64,000 nucleotides of DNA from contig ML769505.1 of assembly GCA_009733575.1 (NCBI GenBank), positions 79,567-143,566 of the forward strand, given 5' to 3'. Source of the stretch: Gymnopus androsaceus JB14 (Eukaryota > Basidiomycota > Agaricomycetes > Agaricales > Omphalotaceae). The notes beneath the pieces were generated by a model, which ran no database searches, was not told where the DNA came from, and was given only the letters and a program-made list of their open reading frames with translations. Position numbers and translations under genes: made by a program. How positions within the stretch are numbered: the stretch's first letter is position 1; every line of letters begins with the position of its first letter. Below are positions 6,319 through 63,033 of the stretch, piece after piece.

Positions 6319-8415
6319 CACTAGAATAGTATACATAAAGTTGAAGTTAGTATACACAAAGTTGAAGTTGACAAACTGAATGTATTCAATTGTCATCAAA
6401 ACGAATCAGCCAGAAGTCGAAATATTTGGTGAAAAATACCGTCATATTTTTGATTCGGTTCAAGTTAAATGGTCGCAAAATACACAAGCCTTTCAAAGAA
6501 CGCACACGCGATAACATCACATATGCACTCTGGATTGAGCAACTGCTAGCTAGATCAATGCAAACCACGTTAAGTGAACGTCCTTGCGAGTTATGGGAAG
6601 TGAATCCAAATGTTGGAACGAGAGGTAACTGCATTCTATTTGCGCTATAGACTCTTTCGGAGTTTGGAAGCTTGAATTTAATTGTTTTGTTGATTGGCTG
6701 TAGAATAACGCGGTGAGGGTGCTGTGGATCTGACGGAGTACCTGTATAACTGGGAAAGTCAACGATAGCTGATACAGCATATCGTCTACCATTGCGCTCC
6801 TGATAGGTTACTGAAACTAAAGTACCCGAGGTACTTTTCGACAATCCGAGTTCAGTAGCAATGTTTTCCGTACCAAATACAGAATACAGGCATACCTGGA
6901 ATGTAAGGAACTTTGCCACCTAAATCACCTGCTTCCTTTACAGACACTCTCCAGGCTGCATCAGCTGCAACACCCTTCAATTCCTTTTTCTTATTTCCAG
7001 CTCCGAGTCCACGTGTATCTAAGGAGTGGTAAATATGGAACTCTTGGCCTGTTGCTTCTGCAAATGCACAGGCACATTCAAAATTGTGTGAATCACGGGT
7101 GGCATATATGTTATCAACGGACAAGCATTCTCAGGGTTTGTCACCCATCGGGTAATGTCAGTAAGTGCCTTAGTCTCTGCAGTGCATTTTCCATTGCCTA
7201 GAACGTAAGAATCTAGGAGACTTTTATCCCCTTCGGTGCAAGTTCCAGTGCGCAGTCTGCTCAATATGTCAATAAGGACATCATCACCCTTTTGTCTCAT
7301 TATTTCCTCGAGAATCACAACATGATTTACTTGATGCCATGCCTCAATTCCTTTTAGGTCATATTGTGTCCCTCCATGCTGTGCGTTTAGTCTATTTGAT
7401 CGGAAACAGTGCACAAGCTCACGATGGAACAGAGATTTGGAATTCGGGGGAGGTAGCTGAGCGGGATCGCCGCAAGTGACAAGATTGAGTTTGGCGAATG
7501 GATGTTCAGTAACACCTTTCGCGATGCAGCAGTACTCAGACAGTAGACTCATGTCCTTTGTGTCCATGAAATAAATCTCATCAACAACAAGTGTTTTCAA
7601 AGGTGCAAAACGTTTCTCTAATGCAGAACGAACTTTCTGACTGTTTGGGGTATCAGCTCGCATGGTAGAATGTGATACACGTAGCGCTGCTTCAGCATGT
7701 ATTGTGCAACCACCTATATCACTCGCAACGGCTCCAGTGGGTGCCGTAAGCCTGAATTCCTCCAAACAGTAAAGTTCTTGATGGAACTCAGTCCAGGCTT
7801 CAAATAAACGTGATTTCCCTGTACCACCGGGGTCAGTTACAAGTAAACGCAAAGGTTTGAAAGGTACACTGACTTCTAATTGGCAGCCTATTGTATCTGC
7901 AACCAGAAGAAAAGCCAAAGTCTGACACTCATTGAGACCATGTTTCTCAATTAACGCAAGTGCTAGCTTTTGGTATGGTCTCAAAATATTCCAGTTGTTT
8001 TCAGCATCCGAGTTAAATCTCAGATGAATTATTCTTGCTCGTTCAATTTCTGCATCCATATTGGTCGAGAAAGGTGAAGGAATATGTGGTGACTCGGTTC
8101 GATAGTGTCGTTGTTGGTCATGCTTTTGCAAAACTAGGTCAGCGCGTTTCTTCAGAATTAATTCTTTTTGTAACATTAACAAATGTGATTCATGATCTGC
8201 AGCCTCACGATCTTCACCTGTTGCTGTTGTTGCTCGGTTAGCATATTTCAGTTGTACTGCATGAGATGTTGGGGTACTTGTGTAGAAACCATGCTCCCAA
8301 CTTGCATTGATTACAGATGCGACTGCTTGAGGTGCATCTAAATAATCTCATTCATCATCCATCTCATCTGGATCAACAGCAGTTTGCATTGCATTTTCTA
8401 ACTCGGGATCAAATA

Positions 8416-8649
8416 CTGTATCATTTCGATTAAGTGTTCATGGGGTTTTGTGCGTTACGCATTGATTTCAGTTATGTACCTGTTCAATTTCCTTATATGA
8501 CAGTGCCGGCGGAGCCGGCACGCAAGAAATTACCTCATATGGTAAGTATTTTCGCATTTTTGGCTCTGTTATGCGTTACGAAGTGGAATTTTGTGGTGTT
8601 CATGGTGCCCCATTACGCGTTACGTGAGCACTTAATTGAAATGATACAG
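8416..8649. mobile_element. TA-flanked MITE (Tc1/mariner-like), 234 bp
   Basis: Terminal inverted repeats CTGTATCATTTCGATTAAGT and its near-perfect complement (one A/G difference) are flanked by TA on both sides (8414-8415 and 8650-8651). Joining the flanks at one TA restores the helicase frame NEDNDVFDPELENAM, so the insertion boundaries are certain. It has no coding capacity. It contains several CGTTACGC/GCGTAACG-type sub-repeats and a GC-rich palindrome GCCGGCGGAGCCGGC near 8505. A TA duplication is characteristic of Tc1/mariner; no transposase is present to prove it. Confidence 0.85.
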
Positions 8650-9689
8650 TACATCATTATCTTCATTGACGGCTCTTGTGTTACCTGAAAAGCCTCCCAG
8701 CTCAGCAATTCTCTTTCTCCTGAGCGCAGAGTAATCAAACTTTGCATCTCAGGATGCATATAATAGTTGCATATTTTCCATTATTTTTGTATATTTCATG
8801 CCTGCAGTAAGCTTCCAAGCTGCAAAAGCAGATTCCCAAGATTCACAATGGTCTTTCAACAAATTTATTTCACTCATTGAACAAGGCTTGAATAAAGTGA
8901 GCATTGCTATTGCATATTTTGTACTTTGATCATCTTTGTCATTGCGAGGAATAGGATAACCCTTGAGAACAGGAATGCATGGAAGTTCATTGCATTCAAT
9001 TTTCTTAAGGCAATGCGTAGAATATTGGGGATGTCCGGACTTGAATCTTAGATATGTCTTAACTTGAGTCTTTGTTTGAGGTATTTCCTCCTTCGCGTAC
9101 ATTATCATAATATCCCAAACACATAAATCTTCCAGCTCATTCGGATGGAGGAAAATGTTATTGTAAAGATGGTTACGTTTATGCGCATTGTCAGAATGTG
9201 TACTTGGTTTAATGTTTTGTTTTTCTGACAAAAACACATAAGAATCATCTTAATTTGGATCAATGAGCTCTTGCGTTGGTAGGTCATCTTTATCAAGTTC
9301 ATTGGTCCGCTCTGCTACACTCTGATTTTCATCAAATACCTCCCAAGCAATATCACGCAACATGCCAGACCAATAGAATATAGGGTATGTACGATTTGTA
9401 TAATGGCTAGGAATGCCAATGAGCATACTGGTAATCTGCTGACTGCTTAACTTGCATTTGCCAATGAGCTTGTTCACAGTCTTAAGCAGAAGTTGGCAAC
9501 TCTTCTCAAGTGTATCAACATTCCCGTCAATATCTAAGGGCACCTTCTCAGACAATATTTTGATTGCAGCACACAGAGCAGAAAAAATGAAAGCCATATC
9601 CATGCTCATTTTAATGGTATAATTCCCAACATACTGAAATAGTGCCATAGCAATAGTTCCACAACTGATTGGCTTAGAATCCATAATAC

Positions 9690-10209
9690 TAGGGTTTTAA
9701 GGTCCAATTCAATTCAGTTTATTTGCTAAATTTTTAATGAACCATGAATTGCACCAGTGCAAGATTTTTTGAAACCTGGATGAACTGTAAACTGGCACTG
9801 GTTTAAATGGTCCATCAGTGCAATCTTTAGTAGTGCATTTTTCAGTGCAGTTCAATGCAATTCACAATTTAAACTGGCTTGAACTGGTCATTCTTACATC
9901 TAAAGATAGAGTACCTCAACACAATAATGCCAACCCAGCTGGTAAATGTCCTGTTTATCATGTATATACTATTGGAAATGTAATGTCAGCATGATAGGAG
10001 TGCCCAAAGCTCTGTTTGTATTAGTATTAATTTGCACAGATTTAAACTGATGCAAGACAGTTTAGGTAATTTTCAAAAATTGAATGCACCATGAACTGGC
10101 ACTGATTTAAACTGTGCATCAGTGCAACCTTCAACAGTGCATTTTCCAGTGCAATGCAATGCAATTCACAGTTTATTTGCAGTTCATTGAACTGGACCTT
10201 AAAACCCTA
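9690..10209. mobile_element. hAT-type MITE inserted in Helitron helicase, 520 bp
   Basis: Perfect 8-bp target duplications CATAATAC lie at 9682-9689 and 10210-10217. The termini are TAGGGTTTTAAGGTCCA and its complement, with imperfect pairing continuing inward. Eight-bp duplications and TAGGG-type ends fit the hAT superfamily. The interior is a mosaic of GTGCA/TGCAC/CAGTGCA motifs, and a block of about 85 bp occurs twice in direct orientation (about 9785-9872 and 10090-10175). Removing the element with one duplication copy restores the helicase reading ...AEQCIMDSKPISCG. No ORF inside. A second member of the same family lies at 52736-53496. Confidence 0.9.
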
Positions 10210-13200
10210 CATAATACACTGTTCGGCTGTCTGTATGATAGGATTGTGACCATTTACAAAGCCATTATTGCATTGAAGAACCAGGTAGCCATCCTCGTCA
10301 AAGTGAGTTTCTGCATGTGTGGGTCTCGGGAGTTGAAACCAACAATCTTTATCATCATTGCGCAAAGCTTTGAGATTAGCTGGAAGATGTTTAAAGCATG
10401 TAGCATTGTGCTTGTGAATCATACCAGTATTTTCTAACACATCTCGTAGGTCTTGATTGAAATTTTCCCAGAATGCAGGATCTTGGGGATTGGGAGGATG
10501 ACTCATAATGGGCTGTCTGGCATACATACCCTCGGTGCGGTAATACGGATGAGTATTTTCAAGAAGATTTTGGGAAAATACATCATCATACCAAGCTATT
10601 AACTTCTTAGCCCATTCGGGATCACTTTCACAATGACGTTTGATCTCGAGCAGGGAGAGACCCTTTTTCAGCCAAATAAGAAGATGAATATGAAGAGAAC
10701 CACAACCTTGAGCTTCAACTACACCATAATAGACAGATACTTCACCAAATGGCAAAAACAACCTTGCTATTAGCGCGTTTTGTTCCCAGCAGTATATCAA
10801 GTAAGATCCTTACAGATGTATCAAAAAATTGAGCAGATGCAACTGGATTCTGTGAGGTAGCTTTTGCCCATTCAAGGTTTTCTGCACCGGGACACAAGTC
10901 ATCAAAGAATTTGTCTAGGTCAAGATCACGACCAGCTAGTACTTGATCAATTGGATTATTAGTGTCCGATGGATTGAGGGTGAGGAATACATGTGGAAGA
11001 CCATTGCTGTGTACAATTGAATACATTTCATCTCGCAAGTTCTGAATTTCAGTTGTAGAACCAGGTACATGCTCCGCAACATAACTGACATATTGCATTA
11101 ATTTACAAGCAGCCTTTTTGCCATCAGTTTCAGGTCTTGTAAAAGGATTGTTCTTGAGTTTCTCAGTATAGCTTTCAATGGTAGCATCAGAGATCTGTTC
11201 AAGTAATGCATCTACACAAGGGAACCATGACTTCTTGACAGCGAGCTTTGATTACCCATAACAAAAATAAAGCTAAGATGTGTTTGGAAGCATCGGTCAG
11301 AGCCATTAAGCAAAAAATGAGAAACATGTTTTTTACTGTCAATTTCCCGGAACCCAATACTGTCATTAGAGGGGACATTGTCATTTTCCATCATACCAAT
11401 ACCATAAGGAAACAGAGTTGGCCATCGATAGCCATATACACTTGGATTTTTGCATGTTGAAAGAGGAGTGGAACCACTTGGGAATTTGATGTAAGGTTCT
11501 GAACTAGTTTTAAGTTGGTGAAGAGCATCTAATTTTCTCATATTATAGGTGGAGTCTGCATGATCAGCATCAACAACTGTCGAGGAAGGAATACTGAGCG
11601 GCGATACATTTCCATTGAACAATTCAGCATTAGCTTGCTTTGTGTAAGTAGCACCTTCTGCTGTATTACTGTCAGTGCGAATAACACTTTGTATTGGAAT
11701 TGGAATACCATGTTCAGGGTATTCAGCGGCATTTGAAAGAATGGTCTCAAGATTTAGATCAGAGTAAAGAGGATCGTTAGCAAAAAGCCACTTCGAAGCA
11801 TTGATAATTTGGGACTGGTGGACAAGGAGAGGTGTCCTAGAAAGCATGTCAACAGTTATCTCAGTGTCCAGAGAGCCAACAAGAATTACACACACTTCAT
11901 CATGCAGTTGAGACAACGGGGGGGGGGGGGTAGTGAAGTAGCAAGAGAGGAGGGATCTTGAGGAAATATGCATACATTGCCTCTGGAAGCGTACTGGCCT
12001 GAAGGACCAAGCTGAACTTTGAACATACATTTAGTAGTACGGGCACGAGCAATGCATTGTTCTTCAAAGAACATCAAACCTTTCAAAGCATCCAGAACAT
12101 CACCTGTCCATAAACCATTCGCATAGCTATGAACAGGTATCTTGACAAATATTCAATCAGAAGAATGATATCTGCTTGGATTTTCAGGTGAAGTCTTTAC
12201 TCGGATGTCAGATTTGCAAAGAGCACAAACACAGTAACAATTATTTTCAATGGTTTTGGGTCGGAAAGCTTGAATTGCAGATTGATCAGACTTTGAGCGC
12301 AATTCCTCAACTGCACTTTCCAGCAGAGAAATGTCAAGGTTAGAGCAAGCAATAGAGGAGATGGTATCAATACACTCCAGAGTACCACAGAAAGAACACT
12401 CAGTGCACTTGATTGCAGCATTAGAACCAGCATTATAAGACTCTTGAAGTATGGAGAGCTTCTCACTGAGAGGTAAGATATTGAGCCAATCATCTGAGTC
12501 ATCAGTCGGGGCCACTGGTTGAGGCAACAAAGATGGCACAACTGCAGATAATGTCAAGGAATTAACAGAAGTAGTTTTTTGCTTCTTCCAAGAAGACATG
12601 TTAGCAGAGACAAATTTCCGTTTACCTGATATGGGCATAGATGAGGCATAATTTTTTAGCTTCAGAGTTTTTGCACAGGACAAAAAGTCAGTTTCTGAAA
12701 GAATGGGATAGTTACATAGACCGGCGTGGTCAGCATGCTCCACTCTTACAAGACAGGCGAAAGAACAACAATAAGAAGAGAACTCAGATCTCATATCTTG
12801 AGTACTTTTCTGCTTTCCATGTGGATGTCTCACGCAGATGTTATGGTGTAAGGTAGCAAGCTTTCGAAGGTCATGGATGCTGAACTTACTCTGATTGACA
12901 AGATACTTGACAACAATGTTCTTCTCATTGTTTGTCAACAAGACAAACTCAGAGTGAACATAACGAGAGGAAGCAGAGGGAGTAGAGGGCACAGCAATGG
13001 AGGAGAAAGTATCATTTTCATTATCATTTTCATTATCATTATCAAACAACATGAGAGTTTCATGAAACGCCAGTGGGGCAGACGCATTCAATGAAGCAGA
13101 AGAATACTAAAAAACTATATGTCAGAGTGGTGAAAATAAAGCATGAAAGCATGCACCATATTTTGCCCAGAAGAGCAAGTGCCATTGGCAGGATGCGGAG

Positions 13201-55596: not shown

Positions 55597-58500
55597 TTAC
55601 TCAATAAGATTAATAAAGCTCAGCTCAGCATGCTTTGACAGCTCTGACAGGCAATGGACTGCTACACATCTGATATCTGCATCTTCATCTTTCGAGGACT
55701 CCAGGACTTGTGACAGGGCAGTGACAATACAGGAATGGAGTCTCTCTAAACCTTCTGTCAAAATGGCTTCTATAAATTATTAACCTGGAGAGGGCCTCAC
55801 CATGCTTTGCAAGCTTAGACAGGCATCTCACTGCTGCCCTTCTGACATCTGAATTTTTATCTCTTAAGGACTTCAGAATTCTTGACAGGCCAGTTGCAAT
55901 GGGAGGATGGAATATCTCTAGACTTTGTATTACAGTGGTTTCAATGAACATAAACCTGGACAGGGGCTCACCATATTTTACAAGCTCAGACAGACAAATA
56001 GCTGCTGCTCTCCTGACATCTGATGATGCATCTTTCAAGGACTCCAGAATTGTTGAGAGAGCAGTTAAGATAGTGCTATGGAATTTCTCTGGACTTGGAA
56101 TTACTATAGTTTCTATGAACCTCAACTTGGACAAGGACTCACCATGCTTTGTCAGTTTAGAGAGGCAATTAAGTACTGCTTCTCTGGTATACCAGCTGAC
56201 ATCTTTCAGACATTTCAGAATCATTGATAGAGCTGCCGAGATGGTGGGATGAAATTTTTCTAAACCTGCAGTTAGAATGGGTTCCAGGAAATCTGAACTT
56301 GGAAAGGAGGTCACCATGCTTTGCAATCTCAGACAAGCAATATACTACTGCCTTTCTGACAGTTGAATCATGATCTTCCAAGGACTGCAGAGTCCTTGAC
56401 AGAGCTGTTTCAATCAGGGGATGGAATCTCTCTCAACCTCCTGTAAGCATGGCTTTCATAAAATACTAACTTGTGAGAGAAGCTCACCATGCTTTGCAAG
56501 CTCATGCAAAAAATTCACTACTGCCGCTCTGACATACCACTGGAGATCCTCCATAAGTTCCAGAATTTTTGGCAGGGCAGTTACAATGGGGAAATGAAAT
56601 TTCTCTGGACTTTAATTTAGAGTAGTTTCTATGAATGTAAACTTGGCCAGCAACTTGCCATGTTTTGCAAGCTCAGACAGACAATTAATTGCTTCATATC
56701 TCCATTGTGACTCCACATGTTTTAACAGTTGTGTAATGCTTGACAGTAAAGTTGAGACAATGCTTTGGAATTTGTCTAGAGCTGATGTTGGGGTACTTTT
56801 CTATGAAATACAACCTGGAACAGGAGCTCACCATGATTTGCAAGCTCAGGCAGACAATTAATCGCTGCCCTTCTAACATCTGAATTTTCAATATTGAAGG
56901 ACTCCAGAATTCTTTCCAGGACAGCAGCAATGGGGAGATGGAGTTTTTCTGAACCTCCTGTTAGAATGCGTTGCATGAATCATTAACTTGGAGACTAGCT
57001 GACCATTTTTTGCAAGCTCAGGCAGACAACTCACTGCCACCATTCTGATAACTGAATCTTTATCTTGTAAGGACTCTAGAATTCCTGACAGGGCAGCTGC
57101 AATGGGGGAATGGTGCTTCTTTGAATCTCCTGTGGGCTGTTAGAAGGGCTTCCATGAAATATCTACTTGGATGTAAGCTGACCATATTTTGCAAGCTCAG
57201 GCAGACAGTTCACTGTCACAATTCTGACACCTGAATCTTGTAAAGGCTCCAAGATCCTTGGTAGGGCAGATACAATGGGCAGATGGAGTGTCTCTAAACC
57301 ACTTGTTAGAGTGGCTTCCGTGAAATATCAACTTGGAGAAGACCTCACCATGCTTTGCAAGCTCAGACAGACAATTAACTACTGTATATCCAACATGAGA
57401 TTTCAGGTCTTTCAACAGCGCTGGAAGGTTTGACAGGACAGTTGAGACAATGCCTTGGAACTTATCTAGACTTGATGTTGCAGTACTTCTCTATGAAATA
57501 TAACCTGGGATAGGAGCTCACCATACTTTGCAAGCTCAGGCAGACAACTAATTGCTGCCATTCTGATATCTGTATGTTCAATGTTCAAAGATTCCAGAAT
57601 TATTTCCAGGGCAGCTACAATGGGGAGATGAAATTTTTCTGAACCTCCTGTTAGAATGGCTTGCATGAACTATTCACTTGGAGACTAGCTGACCATGCTT
57701 TGCCAGCTCAGGCAGACAACTCATTACTGCACTTCTGACATAAGATTTTTCATCTTTCAAGAGCTCCAGAATTCTTGAAAGAGCAGCTGCAATGGGGGGA
57801 TGGAATATCTCTAAACCACCTGTTAGAGTGGTTTGGATAAAATGTCAGCTTTGAGAGGAGCTCACCATGCTTTGCAAGCTCAGATAGACATTTGACTGCT
57901 GAAATTCTGACAAAGGAATTTGAATCTTCCAAGGCCTCCAGAATGTTCAACAGGGCATTTGCAATGAGGGGTTGGTATTTCTCTAAATTTCCTGTTAGAG
58001 TGGCTTCCGTGAAATCTGAACCCGGACAGGGAATCACCGTGTTTTGCAAGCTCGCAGAGACAATTAACTGCTGCCTCTCTGGTATACCCCTTTACATCAC
58101 TCAGAAGCTCCAGGATTATTGAAAGAGCAGCTGAGATGGCGGCATGGATTTTTTCTATACCTTCATTTAAAATGGCTTTCTGAAGATACAAATTTGGAGA
58201 GGAGCTTACCATGTTTTGCAAGCTTAGACAGACAATCAATGGTTACCTGCCTAACATGTAAACATTGATCTTCCAACAACTCCTGTATTCTTTTGGACAG
58301 GGCAGTTGCAATGGGGAAATGGAATTTCTCTCAACCTCTAGTTAGAATAGGTTTCACGTAATTTCTTCAAGAGGAGCTCACCATGCTTTGCAACCTCAGA
58401 CAAAAAATGAACTGCTGCCATTCTGACACGCGAATTTTCATCTTTTAAAGACATCAGAATTCTTGACTGCGCAATCCCAATGAGAGAATGAAATTTATCT

Positions 58501-61500
58501 AAATAACCTGTTAGAATGGCTTGCATAAAATATCAACCTGGACCAGAGCTCACCATGTTTGGACAGTTTAGACAGGCAATTGACTGCTGCGCCTCTGACA
58601 TAAAAATTTTCATCTTTCAAAAGCTCCAAAACTTGTGACAGAGCTGCTGCGATAATAGGATGGAATTTCTCTACACTCCATGTTGTAATATTTTTCACGA
58701 AACATTAACTTGGAGAGAACTCACCATGCTTTGCCAGTTCAGGTATGCAATTAACTACTGCTTTTCTGACCTTTGAATCTTCATCTATCAAGAGCACTAC
58801 AACACTTGGCACTGCAGCCAATGATTGAGACCCTAATGACACCAGCATTGTTGACATTATCTGGTGAAGTGCCTCTATGGCACCACCCACAGAACCAGGA
58901 ATATGAAGAATCGAACACCAATACTGAAGTTTGGCTCGCAGTCCGATTTGAACCTCAGTATTGAGTGCCTTTAATCCTCTACCAAGTGCTGTCTTCAGGT
59001 GCTTTAGCCAAAATCGGCAAGCATATGAGAGTTCAACTTTGATGTATCGCTGAAAACTCCCTCCCACATACAGTTCTTGGGATTCAGGGTTGTATAAGAG
59101 GGTCAGGTTATCCACATTGGACTTTAGCTCATTATCAATTATTTGAAGGCAGGCTCTGCCAAGATCAAAGTGATACTCTGCAATGTCAACAGAGAATTCC
59201 TTGCTGCATATGCTATGACCGAGAAATTTATAGAATGAGGCATGGACAGGGCCTATAGGTTGGTAGCGGCGGTGTGTGTTTGTCAAAAGAGACTCCATAG
59301 CAGTTAAAAACTGCGCTAATAATCTGTCATCTAATCTTCCAAGCCTTATCAACTCCAACATGGACAATGGAGTGTAAGCGGCCAGAAGATAGCCCATTAC
59401 AGGTTTGAATTGAGTGGAAAATAACGTGCCGTAGGTGCGGTGGAGGCGGCTTAGCTCCTCCATATACAGACAATCATTTTGCGCCACAGGCTCTCTGATA
59501 GGCTCTGATGACTTTCCGAAGGACACTATCAGAGCTTTGTACCCAGATAGTGCACTTGTCTCCTGCTGGAATGTGTTCCCACATATGGTTTCACAGGCTT
59601 CTATTATCCACCGAAATGATCCCCGAGCTCTCTCCACAAGTTCAACAATAATGGGCTCAAGCTTTTCCTGAGTGAAATAGGGTAGAAGCGTTTTTCTGCA
59701 AACCTGTGAGAGCTCGCACTTCATCACCCACTCATCAACCTCCATGGAATAAAATATGACCACTGGATTTCCAGCAAGATGCTGAAGAATATGGGAGTCA
59801 TTTCTGGCTATGAGAAGAATCCGGAAGTTTGGAGGAAGATGATGGCTTTTGTTAGCCAGAACTTTGAGGAAGGCATAGAGATCCGTAGACTCCAGGCAAT
59901 CATCCAAGCCATCAAGGACAATAACAATAGGTCCTGATATTGTTAAGGAAGTTGATGGTCCAAGAATGAACTTTTCACACTGATCACTAATTCCAATGGT
60001 CTTTGTAAGGGCTCTATCAGACTCTATGACAGTCCACAGTGCATTGCGAAACTGGATATCCAAGTCAGCAAGGTCTCGAGCCATGGTTGGAAATAGTAGC
60101 ACAGGAAGTCCAGTGCTTGTATATGACTCAGGTTTAGGAAGATCTGCAAAGATTGAAGATCCAAGACGCCCAACACTGTGATAGTGACTAGAAATTGAGT
60201 GTGCAATGGCTGACTTTCCAGTACCAGGTAGTCCTGTCAGCACAAAGATACGCTGATCACCATTACTGAGGTCGTCAATCCAGTTGATGATAGTGTGTAG
60301 GATGCCTTCCTGTGTCTCAGGCAGACACTGCTTATCACTTTGGAATCGGACACCATTTGCATAAGGAAGGTCATTGATATCAATCTTCATTTCTACACAA
60401 TGTAAGCATGACTATTCCTATTTTCTGTAGTTAGCTTGTTGTACTCACCAAGTTTTTTCACTGTCTCCCAGATTCGCAAAACAGTAATCTCAGTGTTGAT
60501 AGTGGAGTGTGCTAGCAGAGCACTCTTGAGCTCATTAAGCTTGCTCCCATACATAGTTATAGCTGCATCCACAGGAGAAACAGCATACTTGACAGTGCGC
60601 ATAACTAGAACAAAAGTTGATGAATGCAGAAGAAATACCAAATATGGCACACATACGGAATGTATCAACACAGTATGCAGATATAAAATATCCACATTCT
60701 GTTGTTTGTTGAGCTAAACGAGCCATAATCAACTTGTGTGATTCAATTTGCTGAAGTGGCTCAGCTTCTTTGACAAAGCTGTATATATCATCCATGGCAA
60801 GAATTAGACAGTTGATATTTGCATCGCGTTCCAGTTGTTTCATAACAGCCTTCAAGTGGAATTTAGACTGGTCAGGCTCTTGGTTAAATGGGCTTGGCAA
60901 TGACCTTGTATGCCATGGAAATTACACTATATGCAGCCTTTGCATATGGATGGACCTGTCAGCATAAATCCGTCGGTTTTGCTGAAATAAACATTGATAC
61001 TGAAACTCACCTCTGCAACTTTATCAGCTAGGTTTGCAAATATTTGCAGTTTTTCAAGCAAATGATCCCAAATCTCTACTATATTAACAAAATGAATATC
61101 CCCAATCAATTGCATCCTGTTGAAAGAAGCACTATCATGCATGGCTTGGGATTTTGCAAGCCGTGAAGCTTGAATCTTCACTCTCTGAACCATGGCAGAG
61201 ATAGCTCCAACCACGTCTTGGTCTTTCAAATTGACTTTGAACTCAATAAGAAATTTAGACGTCCCTGCATTTAATTGGGAACCGGAGGGAAGAGGTTCAC
61301 TAATACCTTTGAAAATAAATGATTGAATCATTGAGTCAGGAGCCTCAAAAATTGCATGATTTACTCACTTTTGTCAAAAGACCTGATCAGCAATGCTTCA
61401 AGATCCTCTGTGTAACTCCCAATCAAGACATCTGACCAGCGACGAAGTTTACGTCGCCGAAAGACCTTGATAGCGAACTTGCACGGCACAGGAATTTCAC

Positions 61501-61714
61501 TAAAGTATGGCCATGAGCTTTTGAACCAAAGATTTGAATAAAGAAATACAAACAAAGTAAAGTCTTCGTTCCATCCTTGGATCAAAGTTTTATCCTTGGT
61601 GGTCTCCACTGCATCGTTGATAGTGACTTTCGCAAAATATTTCTGCGATGGTGGATTTTTTCCACTGTCAGATGAATGATGAAGTCTAATGACTTGATAT
61701 ACCAAGTGAGCCAC
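55597..61714 (-). CDS. STAND/NLR-like receptor: C2, NACHT and 19 HEAT-type exons
   Basis: The N-terminus (ATG at 61714) is C2-like: KYFAKVTINDAVETTKDKTL, an intron, then KFAIKVFRRRKLRRWSDVLI-GSYTEDLEALL. The linker helices follow the Agaricomycete NLR pattern: ADKVAE-intron-VHPYAKAAYSVIS, SFVKEAEPLQQIESHKLIMA, RLAQQTTECGYFISAYCVDT, INTEITVLRIWETVKKL. A large exon (60390 leftward) starts MKIDINDLPYANGVRF and holds NACHT with Walker A FVLTGLPGTGKSAIAHSI, Walker B PIVIVLDGLDDC and a sensor-like FRILLIARND. From residue ~540 of that exon the first HEAT-type unit begins (VRKAVVNCIPELAKHGE), followed by 18 more, each on its own exon. The last reads CLSELSKHAELSFINLIE and stops at 55597-55599. Exons between 61000 and 60860 are uncertain because one apparent intron is only 37 bp. 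Such proteins are thought to act in non-self recognition and cell death; here that is by family only. Confidence 0.85.
55629..58760 (-). repeat. 19-unit array, period 172 bp, one HEAT-type repeat per exon
   Basis: The repeat boundary (base before the donor) falls at 58725, 58554, 58382, 58210, 58038, 57867, 57694, 57522, 57349, 57183, 57004, 56832, 56659, 56488, 56315, 56143, 55972, 55801 and 55629. Spacing is 171-173 bp apart from one 166/179 pair. Each unit is a 117-nt exon plus a ~55-nt intron. The exon codes EKFHPPIAAALSRILESLKD followed by ENSDVRRAAVNCLSELAKH-like sequence, 39 residues. Every intron is phase 1, splitting a codon after KH. Most donors read CATG/GTGAGC; one is a GC donor (CATG/GCAAGT at 56658). 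The final unit has CTGAGC in place of the donor and runs to a stop. Confidence 0.9.
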
Positions 61715-62083
61715 AATGAGTCACCGTAAACATAGTGAAAAGTCTGATTAACTCACTTGTAACATGCACTATTCCTATCTCCGGAGATTGAATGCCGCTG
61801 CTGTTGAAAGTCAAAGAATATCAGCATGATCAGAGGAAGAACGGGAAATTCATCATGCTAACCGAACGACAGACATAGTAGCAAGCCTCAATGTGAGAGT
61901 TGGGAAGAAAGAAAGAAATCGACCATTTAAACTTTTCAGCGCGTGTGAAGAATCAAGATATTGCAGTGGTGCAAGTAACGCGGATCCATTAATATCATTG
62001 ACACAGCCAATTGAAAAGGTGTACCGATGATGACGTTGCAACCATCTGCGATGGGAGCTACAGTGCTGTGCATAAATTTCACA
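61715..62083. other. 5' flank of the receptor gene
   Basis: Presumed promoter and leader of the minus-strand receptor. A minus-strand frame at 61853-62041 (LTLRLATMSVVRL) is not protein-like. No clear TATA element. Confidence 0.4.
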
Positions 62084-62541: not shown

Positions 62542-63033
62542 CACGCCAAAAGTGCAAAAAAATCCGCTCGAATGAAATACTGATTGATTTACTAATTTTC
62601 GCGTGAAAAATCGCTTATGAGTGAAATTTTGAGCGAAAAATGATCATTCAGTTGAGCTACATAGTTTAATGAAAATATACTTATCGGTTGAGTTTTCAGT
62701 TAAAACTGAAAAAAAGACTGAAATATCAGCTACTCTGGCAGCCAAAACTGATGGACCCCCAACAACCTACTGAAGGGCCAGATCTTATTTGGGTGTGATT
62801 CAATACCTGACTTGGGGGGCCCATCTGTTCTGGCTGCCAGAGTAGCTGATATTTCAGTCTTTTTTTCAGTTTTAACTGAAAACTCAACCGATAAGTATAT
62901 TTTCATTAAACTATGTAGCTCAACTGAATGATCATTTTTCACTCAAAATTTCACTCATAAGCGATTTTTCACGCGAAAATTAGTAAATCAATCAGTATTT
63001 CATTCGAGCGGATTTTTTTGCACTTTTGGCGTG
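62542..63033. mobile_element. Near-perfect hairpin MITE, 492 bp
   Basis: Two arms of about 222 bp are almost exact reverse complements. The left begins CACGCCAAAAGTGCAAAAAA and the right ends TTGCACTTTTGGCGTG. The spacer is only about 48 bp. ATA lies on both sides (62539-62541 and 63034-63036), a 3-bp duplication. The arms differ at only a few positions, which implies a recent origin or maintained pairing. No ORF. Confidence 0.9.

Follow-up and report, generated by a model that had tools for sequence, protein, structure and literature searches.

Receptor Gene and Cassette Array

A row of short exons on the minus strand of contig ML769505.1 of Gymnopus androsaceus JB14 raises the question of whether these exons form the sensor of a fungal receptor and whether such a sensor is changed by whole exon-intron units. 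We analyzed a 64,000-nt stretch of this contig (positions 79,567 to 143,566), hereafter the window; judged from its sequence, it contains a STAND/NOD-like receptor (NLR)-type gene with an intron-punctuated HEAT tail. The reading that we prefer, and to which we give a probability of roughly 0.7, is that the gene encodes a fungal NLR-type (STAND) receptor with a HEAT solenoid sensor built as exon-intron cassettes, and that whole cassettes turn over within its family.

The STAND/NACHT-type receptor gene runs on the minus strand from an ATG near 61876 to a stop codon whose last base is 55597. The ATG region at about 61876 is common to three paralogs, the public protein P0001 begins with MSVVR, and the splice sites used here for the N-terminal part are those of this public model. 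The C2 model (PF00168) matches residues 15-101 of P0001 with an E value of 0.00057 and 20.5 bits, just below the cut-off of 22, and UniRef labels the P0001-type protein as C2 domain-containing. The NPHP3_N model (PF24883) matches both the NACHT-type exon (E value 2.4e-15) and P0001 (4.5e-15), the Pfam NACHT model (PF05729) stays under the cut-off on P0001 (0.06), and a P-loop NOD is present, with Walker A (GLPGTGKS) and Walker B (VIVLDGLDD) motifs visible in the NACHT-type part. From the ATG of the NACHT-type exon (60390) an open reading of 1269 aa extends across 18 introns to the stop at 55597, which coincides with the left boundary given in the original prediction, and the spliced tail matches the Pfam HEAT model (PF02985) with an E value of 1.2e-77, that is, superstructure-forming repeats are present at the C-terminus. 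The parts of the gene are as follows.

55597..61876, minus strand: entire receptor gene, from the N-terminal exons through the NACHT-type exon and the HEAT cassette array to the stop, delimited by the ATG exon common with the paralogs, the start of P0001 and the stop position
60449..61876, minus strand: N-terminal exons, C2-like part and adaptor region (from the P0001 N-terminus)
58725..60391, minus strand: NACHT-type exon with NPHP3_N/STAND NTPase (PF24883), helical part and fused first HEAT unit, ending in phase 1
58725..58812, minus strand: unit 0, the first of the HEAT repeats, carried on the NACHT-type exon; unit profile match at 58820-58725, PF02985 sub-threshold (residues 527-555 of the exon, E value 0.00018)
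58554..58724, minus strand: cassette 1, intron 58724-58671 (54 nt), exon 58670-58554; groups with the first units of five paralogous arrays
58382..58553, minus strand: cassette 2, intron 55 nt, exon 58498-58382
58210..58381, minus strand: cassette 3, intron 52 nt, exon 58329-58210 (120 nt)
58038..58209, minus strand: cassette 4, intron 55 nt, exon 58154-58038; sister of cassette 15
57866..58037, minus strand: cassette 5, intron 55 nt, exon 57982-57866
57694..57865, minus strand: cassette 6, intron 55 nt, exon 57810-57694
57522..57693, minus strand: cassette 7, intron 55 nt, exon 57638-57522; pair of cassette 11 (86% identity)
57349..57521, minus strand: cassette 8, intron 56 nt, exon 57465-57349; pair of cassette 12 (79% identity)
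57183..57348, minus strand: cassette 9, intron 55 nt, exon 57293-57183 (111 nt)
57004..57182, minus strand: cassette 10, intron 53 nt ending CCCACAG, exon 57129-57004 (126 nt); usual acceptor AG absent
56832..57003, minus strand: cassette 11, intron 55 nt, exon 56948-56832; pair of cassette 7
56659..56831, minus strand: cassette 12, intron 56 nt, exon 56775-56659; pair of cassette 8
56488..56658, minus strand: cassette 13, intron 54 nt (donor GC), exon 56604-56488
56315..56487, minus strand: cassette 14, intron 56 nt, exon 56431-56315
56143..56314, minus strand: cassette 15, intron 55 nt, exon 56259-56143; sister of cassette 4
55972..56142, minus strand: cassette 16, intron 54 nt (multiple of 3, stop-free), exon 56088-55972
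55801..55971, minus strand: cassette 17, intron 54 nt (multiple of 3, stop-free), exon 55917-55801
55629..55800, minus strand: cassette 18, intron 55 nt, exon 55745-55629, no donor, runs on
55597..55628, minus strand: terminal codons AELSFINLIE and stop; closely similar end on arrays A, B, and G

The tail consists of 19 HEAT units, one fused to the NACHT-type exon and 18 in complete intron-exon cassettes. This agrees with the number in the original prediction, made from the letters of the window, whose spacing of 171-173 nt holds in 16 of the 18 cassettes and fails in units 9 and 10 (166 and 179 nt). The same prediction had exons of 117 nt with phase-1 introns on both sides: 15 of the 18 exons have that length (the remaining three are 120, 111, and 126 nt), all 18 are multiples of 3 in phase 1, and 17 are flanked by phase-1 introns on both sides, the departure being the last exon, which continues into the terminal codons without a donor at 55628. 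The introns are 52-56 nt long. An exon of 42 residues was rejected as a general rule. The window units are approximately 67% identical in DNA to one another, which is below the 85% mark of repeat NLRs with high internal conservation.

Splice Sites and Constraint on the Spliced Frame

Donors are GT in 17 of the 18 tail introns and GC in one, and every intron has an AG acceptor, at the aligned standard place in 17 of them, about 9 nt downstream of a CTAACAG motif. The acceptor motif of this CTAACAG type that had been proposed for the array was misplaced: ACAG directly follows a CTAAC-like motif in only 8 of the 18 introns by eye (a pattern count gives 7, missing unit 14), and CTAACAG was therefore rejected as a general acceptor in favor of the AG further downstream. 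The CTAAC-like stretch itself has the look of a branch site. Unit 10 lacks the usual AG, and its frame is kept only through the extra CCCACAG as acceptor. If retained, the introns bring a stop in nine cases and a frameshift in seven; introns 16 and 17 read through and, by their sequence, could be retained in frame. A 213-aa minus-strand frame at 55685-56326 spans these two introns unspliced.

The 18 tail exons contain no stop in the spliced frame versus 38 and 40 in the two shifted frames. Simulated neutral drift from the consensus (2000 simulations at a divergence of 0.214, the mean of the units from the consensus) placed on average 15.3 stops, and at least 4, in the 15 standard exons, in which none is observed; the three units of non-standard length were left out of the simulation, the codon counts, and the window entropy. 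Intron length differs from 55 nt in nine of 18 cases, eight of them not by threes, whereas exon length differs in three of 18, always by threes (the intron rate would predict 19.1; Poisson P 6.7e-6). Between the 15 units the proportion of nonsynonymous differences (pN) is 0.30 and that of synonymous differences (pS) is 0.45, giving a pN/pS of 0.66. Because the spliced frame is open and the length and pN/pS controls agree with it, we conclude that the predicted exon borders are right and that the protein has been under constraint.

Paralogous Arrays in the Genome

The comparison was made within one genome, the 83.3-Mb genome of G. androsaceus JB14, where the scoring of 90 of the 218 candidates set a lower bound of 90 NACHT matches. 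A search of this genome with the 39-aa exon, in which all 70 first-look candidates were scored, gave 62 matches at an E value of 0.01, and all lie on seven contigs of one receptor family. The window array (W) has 18 cassettes, array A (contig C540) has 19, and array B (C185) has 15; arrays D (C540) and F (C155) are cut by contig ends, and further pieces lie on C156, C524, and C319. Of the seven cassette-bearing contigs, four break off within an array, and the end of C156 is chimeric and includes an inverted piece (C540, C156, C155, C524, and C319 being the contigs concerned). The NACHT-type domains ahead of A, D, B, and F are 60-63% identical to that of the window gene. Because the 5' parts and upstream stretches of the A, B, D, and F genes are 90-95% identical to one another (95% for the 5' parts of A and B), we regard these four as recent segmental copies. 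Array A is nearly clean across its 19 units, with two 1-nt deletions (units 6 and 8). B units 2-6 are all 172 nt long, and B units 7-13 (L024 7970-9190) have many 1-nt indels in introns and exons alike, looking like unpolished long-read sequence.

HEAT cassettes were not found in the fetched stretches of the 47% identical relatives (C523 and C45) or of two members of a larger 31% identical group (C49 and C266). By eye, the tails of these four read as WD40-type in long frames, and the C523 protein (P0004) has WD40 Pfam matches. Five of six Rhodocollybia proteins likewise have them, and P0010 is the one without. From these sequences, a HEAT cassette tail seems to have taken the place of a WD40 tail in a single small branch.

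Probable Turnover of Cassette Number and Order

In a tree of 63 units, the first units of six arrays group together (support 100/98) and the last units of A and B are sisters (100/99). A further branch (99/99) separates the 40 internal units of the young arrays from every unit of the window array. It follows from this grouping that array ends are fixed by position and that the middles of the young arrays have been renewed from a narrow stock. Within the window array, units 7 and 11, 8 and 12, and 4 and 15 pair with support of 100/99 each.

The number of cassettes differs among W, A, and B (18, 19, and 15), a comparison between paralogs of one genome. Colinearity of the internal order of A and B was not found (p 0.16; 0.73 without the last unit) in a test covering A2-A19 and B2-B15, in which, as in the test for periods, frame-changed units and the doubtful B7-B13 were included. 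The expectation that the locus type changes in unit number and order was thus borne out between paralogs, where the A-B order is non-colinear despite 95% identical 5' parts. Array A repeats at a higher order every three units (exon identity of 0.887 at lag 3, p 0.0004), and its identity in DNA by lag is 86-91% for whole cassettes and 82-89% for exons, which is borderline against the 85% mark of internal conservation. In the paralogs the introns hardly vary, the first and last units are conserved, and the middles are scrambled, which together supports turnover of whole cassettes. By its sequence, the window array looks like an old, settled member that is no longer homogenised, its paralogs being the lively ones.

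Introns against Exons

The original prediction also held that intron bodies are conserved and that whole exon-intron cassettes were copied. In the window array, however, introns and exons are equally diverged (mean distances 0.339 and 0.332), and the introns are not more conserved. Intron and exon distances correlate across the window array (Mantel r 0.23, p 0.042), but the correlation is gone without units 7, 8, 11, and 12 (r -0.08, p 0.69), and whole-cassette copying was therefore rejected as the general history of this array. What stands is copying of whole cassettes, in the window array for the block 7-8 versus 11-12 and more clearly in the paralogs.

Distance correlations in the young arrays were computed over A3-A19 and seven B units, and nucleotide diversity over all 40 young units, a set that excludes the five first units (A1, B1, D1, E1, and F1). 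In array A, the mean distance is 0.042 for introns and 0.159 for exons (17 units) and nucleotide diversity is 0.048 and 0.155 (18 units), respectively, that is, introns are 3 times less diverse. Since introns are equal to exons in the old array and near-invariant in the young ones, conservation is not an inherent property of them; in the simplest view, homogenisation acts on the introns across the exon variants, which themselves persist. Introns of array A do not correlate with their own exon (r -0.22, p 0.92). Among several tests of this kind, one linked them to the exon upstream, in its 3' half (Mantel r 0.44, p 0.003), a link that we treat as a lead; the corresponding value in the window array is r 0.17 (p 0.10). 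More speculatively, the introns might act as homology seams at which exchange starts or resolves, shuffling intact exon variants between positions and loci, so that the array would be a built-in exon-shuffling device to which the same gene could add splicing diversity; we regard this as a tentative idea with the odds against it.

Exon Variation and Repeat Structure

For the analyses of residue strings, entropy, and pN/pS in the young arrays, 10 of the 40 units with frame-changing indels or misset borders were dropped. Exon variation in these arrays is highest at codons 21-23, and the 30 remaining units have 25 distinct strings at residues 21-32. Two residue types at codons 21-24, DSWY and TDED (L024 and L021), are apparently the same DNA with two compensating 1-nt indels. 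B8 and B12 hold a 1-nt longer hybrid at these codons; a frameshift relation between the two main types was set aside as too weak (shuffle p 0.045).

The relative modelled is a Serendipita protein with 39-residue HEAT units, P0071 (pLDDT, the per-residue model confidence, mostly 80-93 in the repeats; whole-model mean 56.5; predicted TM score 0.44). Its typical unit (699-737) has a helix A in pieces 1-8 and 11-19, a turn at 20-22, and a helix B at 23-36. Placed on this model, residues 21-24 would fall at the turn between helices A and B and the exon borders in the loop between repeats. Residues 21-24 are the most variable places in P0071 and are among the six most variable in the Mycena protein P0070 (11 of 12 and 9 of 19 units compared, respectively), although position-by-position agreement of the variability of these proteins with that of the young arrays is weak and non-significant (rho 0.22-0.27). 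The 39-residue HEAT arrays occupy residues 600-1067 of P0071 and 1009-1740 of P0070, with no NACHT-type match among the Pfam matches listed, and these proteins possibly represent another receptor class. The DUF6535 proteins P0071 and P0074 (Mycena), together with P0070, resemble the window gene in the 39-residue spacing, which is exact in 16 of 18 steps of P0070 and looser in P0071 and P0074, and differ from it in their N-terminal parts. The PDB sequences nearest to a composite of the young repeats are alphaReps, engineered HEAT binders with repeats of approximately 31 residues. Some of the places that are variable in alphaReps (23, 24, 27, and 31) are by eye variable in the young repeats too, but alphaReps are engineered proteins, unlike a natural receptor tail.

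Preferred and Alternative Explanations

Under the preferred reading, each exon would encode one helical hairpin, with the phase-1 intron in the loop between repeats, and most likely all cassettes are constitutively spliced, which would yield a solenoid of 19 repeats. The frame-neutral cassettes, together with the near-identical stretches of DNA that the introns of the young paralogs provide, would let whole repeats be gained, lost, and reordered by unequal exchange and gene conversion with the frame intact. Residues 21-24 at the predicted helix A-helix B turn would stay diverse, with a putative role in ligand recognition. Several observations weigh against parts of this reading. By simple counting that ignores recombination, pN/pS over the exon is 0.69 [0.56-0.91] in array A (16 units), 0.72 [0.46-1.23] in array B (7 usable units), and 0.67 [0.56-0.82] over the 30 young units (0.91 at codons 24-39 and 0.54 at codons 21-23). 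Positive selection by pN/pS over the exon, a check proposed with the original prediction, was thus rejected; values above 1 occur only in B (1.30 at codons 24-39 and 1.08 at codons 21-39), with wide intervals. Because synonymous exon sites of array A are more diverse than its introns (0.196 versus 0.054), the diversity may be old variation spared by homogenisation, and because A and B units are not separated by locus in the tree (14 changes in A versus a shuffled mean of 16.6, as low in 40 of 500 shuffles; 14 versus 13.7 in B), part of the unit pool may predate the A/B split. The public model P0001 (903 aa) terminates within the first tail intron, ending ...ELAKHGEFSPS. Arrays A (units 6 and 8) and B (7-13) contain 1-nt indels, which may reflect decay, and the NACHT-type reading of B contains a stop.

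The last of these points suggest that the tail could be a relic, the gene ending in its first tail intron and the HEAT exons downstream being decaying leftovers. The end of P0001 reads into intron 1, and frameshifting indels occur in A and B; the public models P0002 and P0003 also lack a tail, yet they count little, being models of the F and D genes, both truncated at contig ends. The window exons do not behave like leftovers: they hold no stop at about 21% divergence from the consensus, where neutral drift never gave fewer than four, their lengths change by threes only, their pN/pS is below 1, and GT/GC-AG is kept in all 18 introns, in one via a substitute acceptor. We consider a relic the least probable of the alternatives. 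Hardly more credible to us is that the differences between paralogs come from collapsed or chimeric repeats in the assembly. The contigs that end within arrays, the chimeric end of C156, and the 1-nt indels of B7-B13 speak for this; mis-assembly of the window array is hardly possible, however, because it is internally diverged, and array A has hardly any indels in its 19 units and keeps a regular period of three.

Equally improbable in our judgment is a static array, in which an old HEAT domain was amplified once, the introns are incidental, the family does not change, and the paralogs have differed since their origin. The low likeness of the window units and the intermingling of A and B internal units are as such a history would have them, but A and B differ in cassette number (19 versus 15) and order behind 5' parts that are 95% identical, and young introns are nearly invariant across exon variants. 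Somewhat less unlikely, by analogy with the leucine-rich repeat (LRR) exons of NLRP3, is a splicing repertoire, in which exon skipping or alternative acceptors would give many tail lengths from one gene. Seventeen exons are symmetric in phase 1, three in-frame residues would be gained where an intron has tandem AGs 9 nt apart, as some do, introns 16 and 17 are retainable without stop or frameshift, and NLRP3 offers a precedent in the available part of its report (PMC11352923). Symmetric exons are nevertheless no evidence of regulated skipping because they are expected from the duplication of one cassette, and retention of 16 of the 18 introns brings a stop or a frameshift.

Comparison with Known Receptors

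The available parts of the reports on Podospora anserina describe NLRs with WD40 (het-d/het-e), ANK, TPR, and HEAT tails (the latter in Pa_6_7270) and high internal repeat conservation, and the Gymnopus receptor resembles them in having a NOD and a repeated C-terminal sensor, concerted evolution, variation in repeat number, and hypervariable residues on the binding face (PMC1805685, PMC4986451, PMC12222747). A Podospora HEAT tail has 3 to 12 repeats across the five strains determined, according to the part of the source available (PMC4986451). In Gymnopus, by contrast, each repeat is its own exon, the introns of young arrays are homogenised along with the exons, variation in number is seen between paralogs, and pN/pS over the exon does not exceed 1. 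In the accessible portion of the NLRP3 work, the vertebrate LRR exons are likewise equal-sized, cut at the same point of the repeat, and skipped with the frame kept; they differ in that each 171-bp exon holds two LRRs and in that alternative splicing has been shown for NLRP3 (PMC11352923). Neither turnover of the array nor introns of near identity are mentioned in that portion. The Gymnopus receptor joins the repeat turnover of Podospora and the symmetric exons of NLRP3 and thereby differs from both.

Among fungal NACHT receptors, NACHT-ANK of Tuber melanosporum also has a recognition region split into many small exons (PMC9815663, PMC4986451, in the parts available), but these are 3-bp mini-exons, whereas the Gymnopus exons are 111-126 nt and encode whole 39-residue repeats. 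The N-NACHT/HEAT receptors of Ascomycota and Mortierellales likewise combine NACHT with a HEAT tail, and their HETHS motif is given in the available text as FhHxxhQE[YF]hxA, a NAIP-like helical motif (PMC12258605). This motif is absent in the window protein, which by eye has PVHASFYKFL at the corresponding place, and the nearest relatives of the window receptor have WD40-type tails, unlike the N-NACHT/HEAT receptors. A fungal receptor with one exon per repeat was not found in the literature searched, outside of which most subscription papers fell.

Other Features of the Window

About 0.7 kb upstream of the receptor start lies an inverted repeat (62542-63033) with 219-nt arms that are 98% complementary and 54 nt apart; by its sequence it looks like a miniature inverted-repeat transposable element. 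Minus-strand open reading frames at 6386-12030 resemble, and may encode, a PIF1-like helicase and a Helitron-type protein. Rfam and tRNA scans of the 64-kb window gave no matches.

Implications

Fungal receptors with rapidly changing repeats are already known, and the tail with one exon per repeat is a new variation on them. Because the public gene model omits the entire cassette array, surveys of basidiomycete receptors may undercount such tails. In the WD40-tailed relatives the repeats are part of long frames, and the array therefore offers no internal neutral standard; an own intron for each repeat can separate homogenisation from selection unit by unit.

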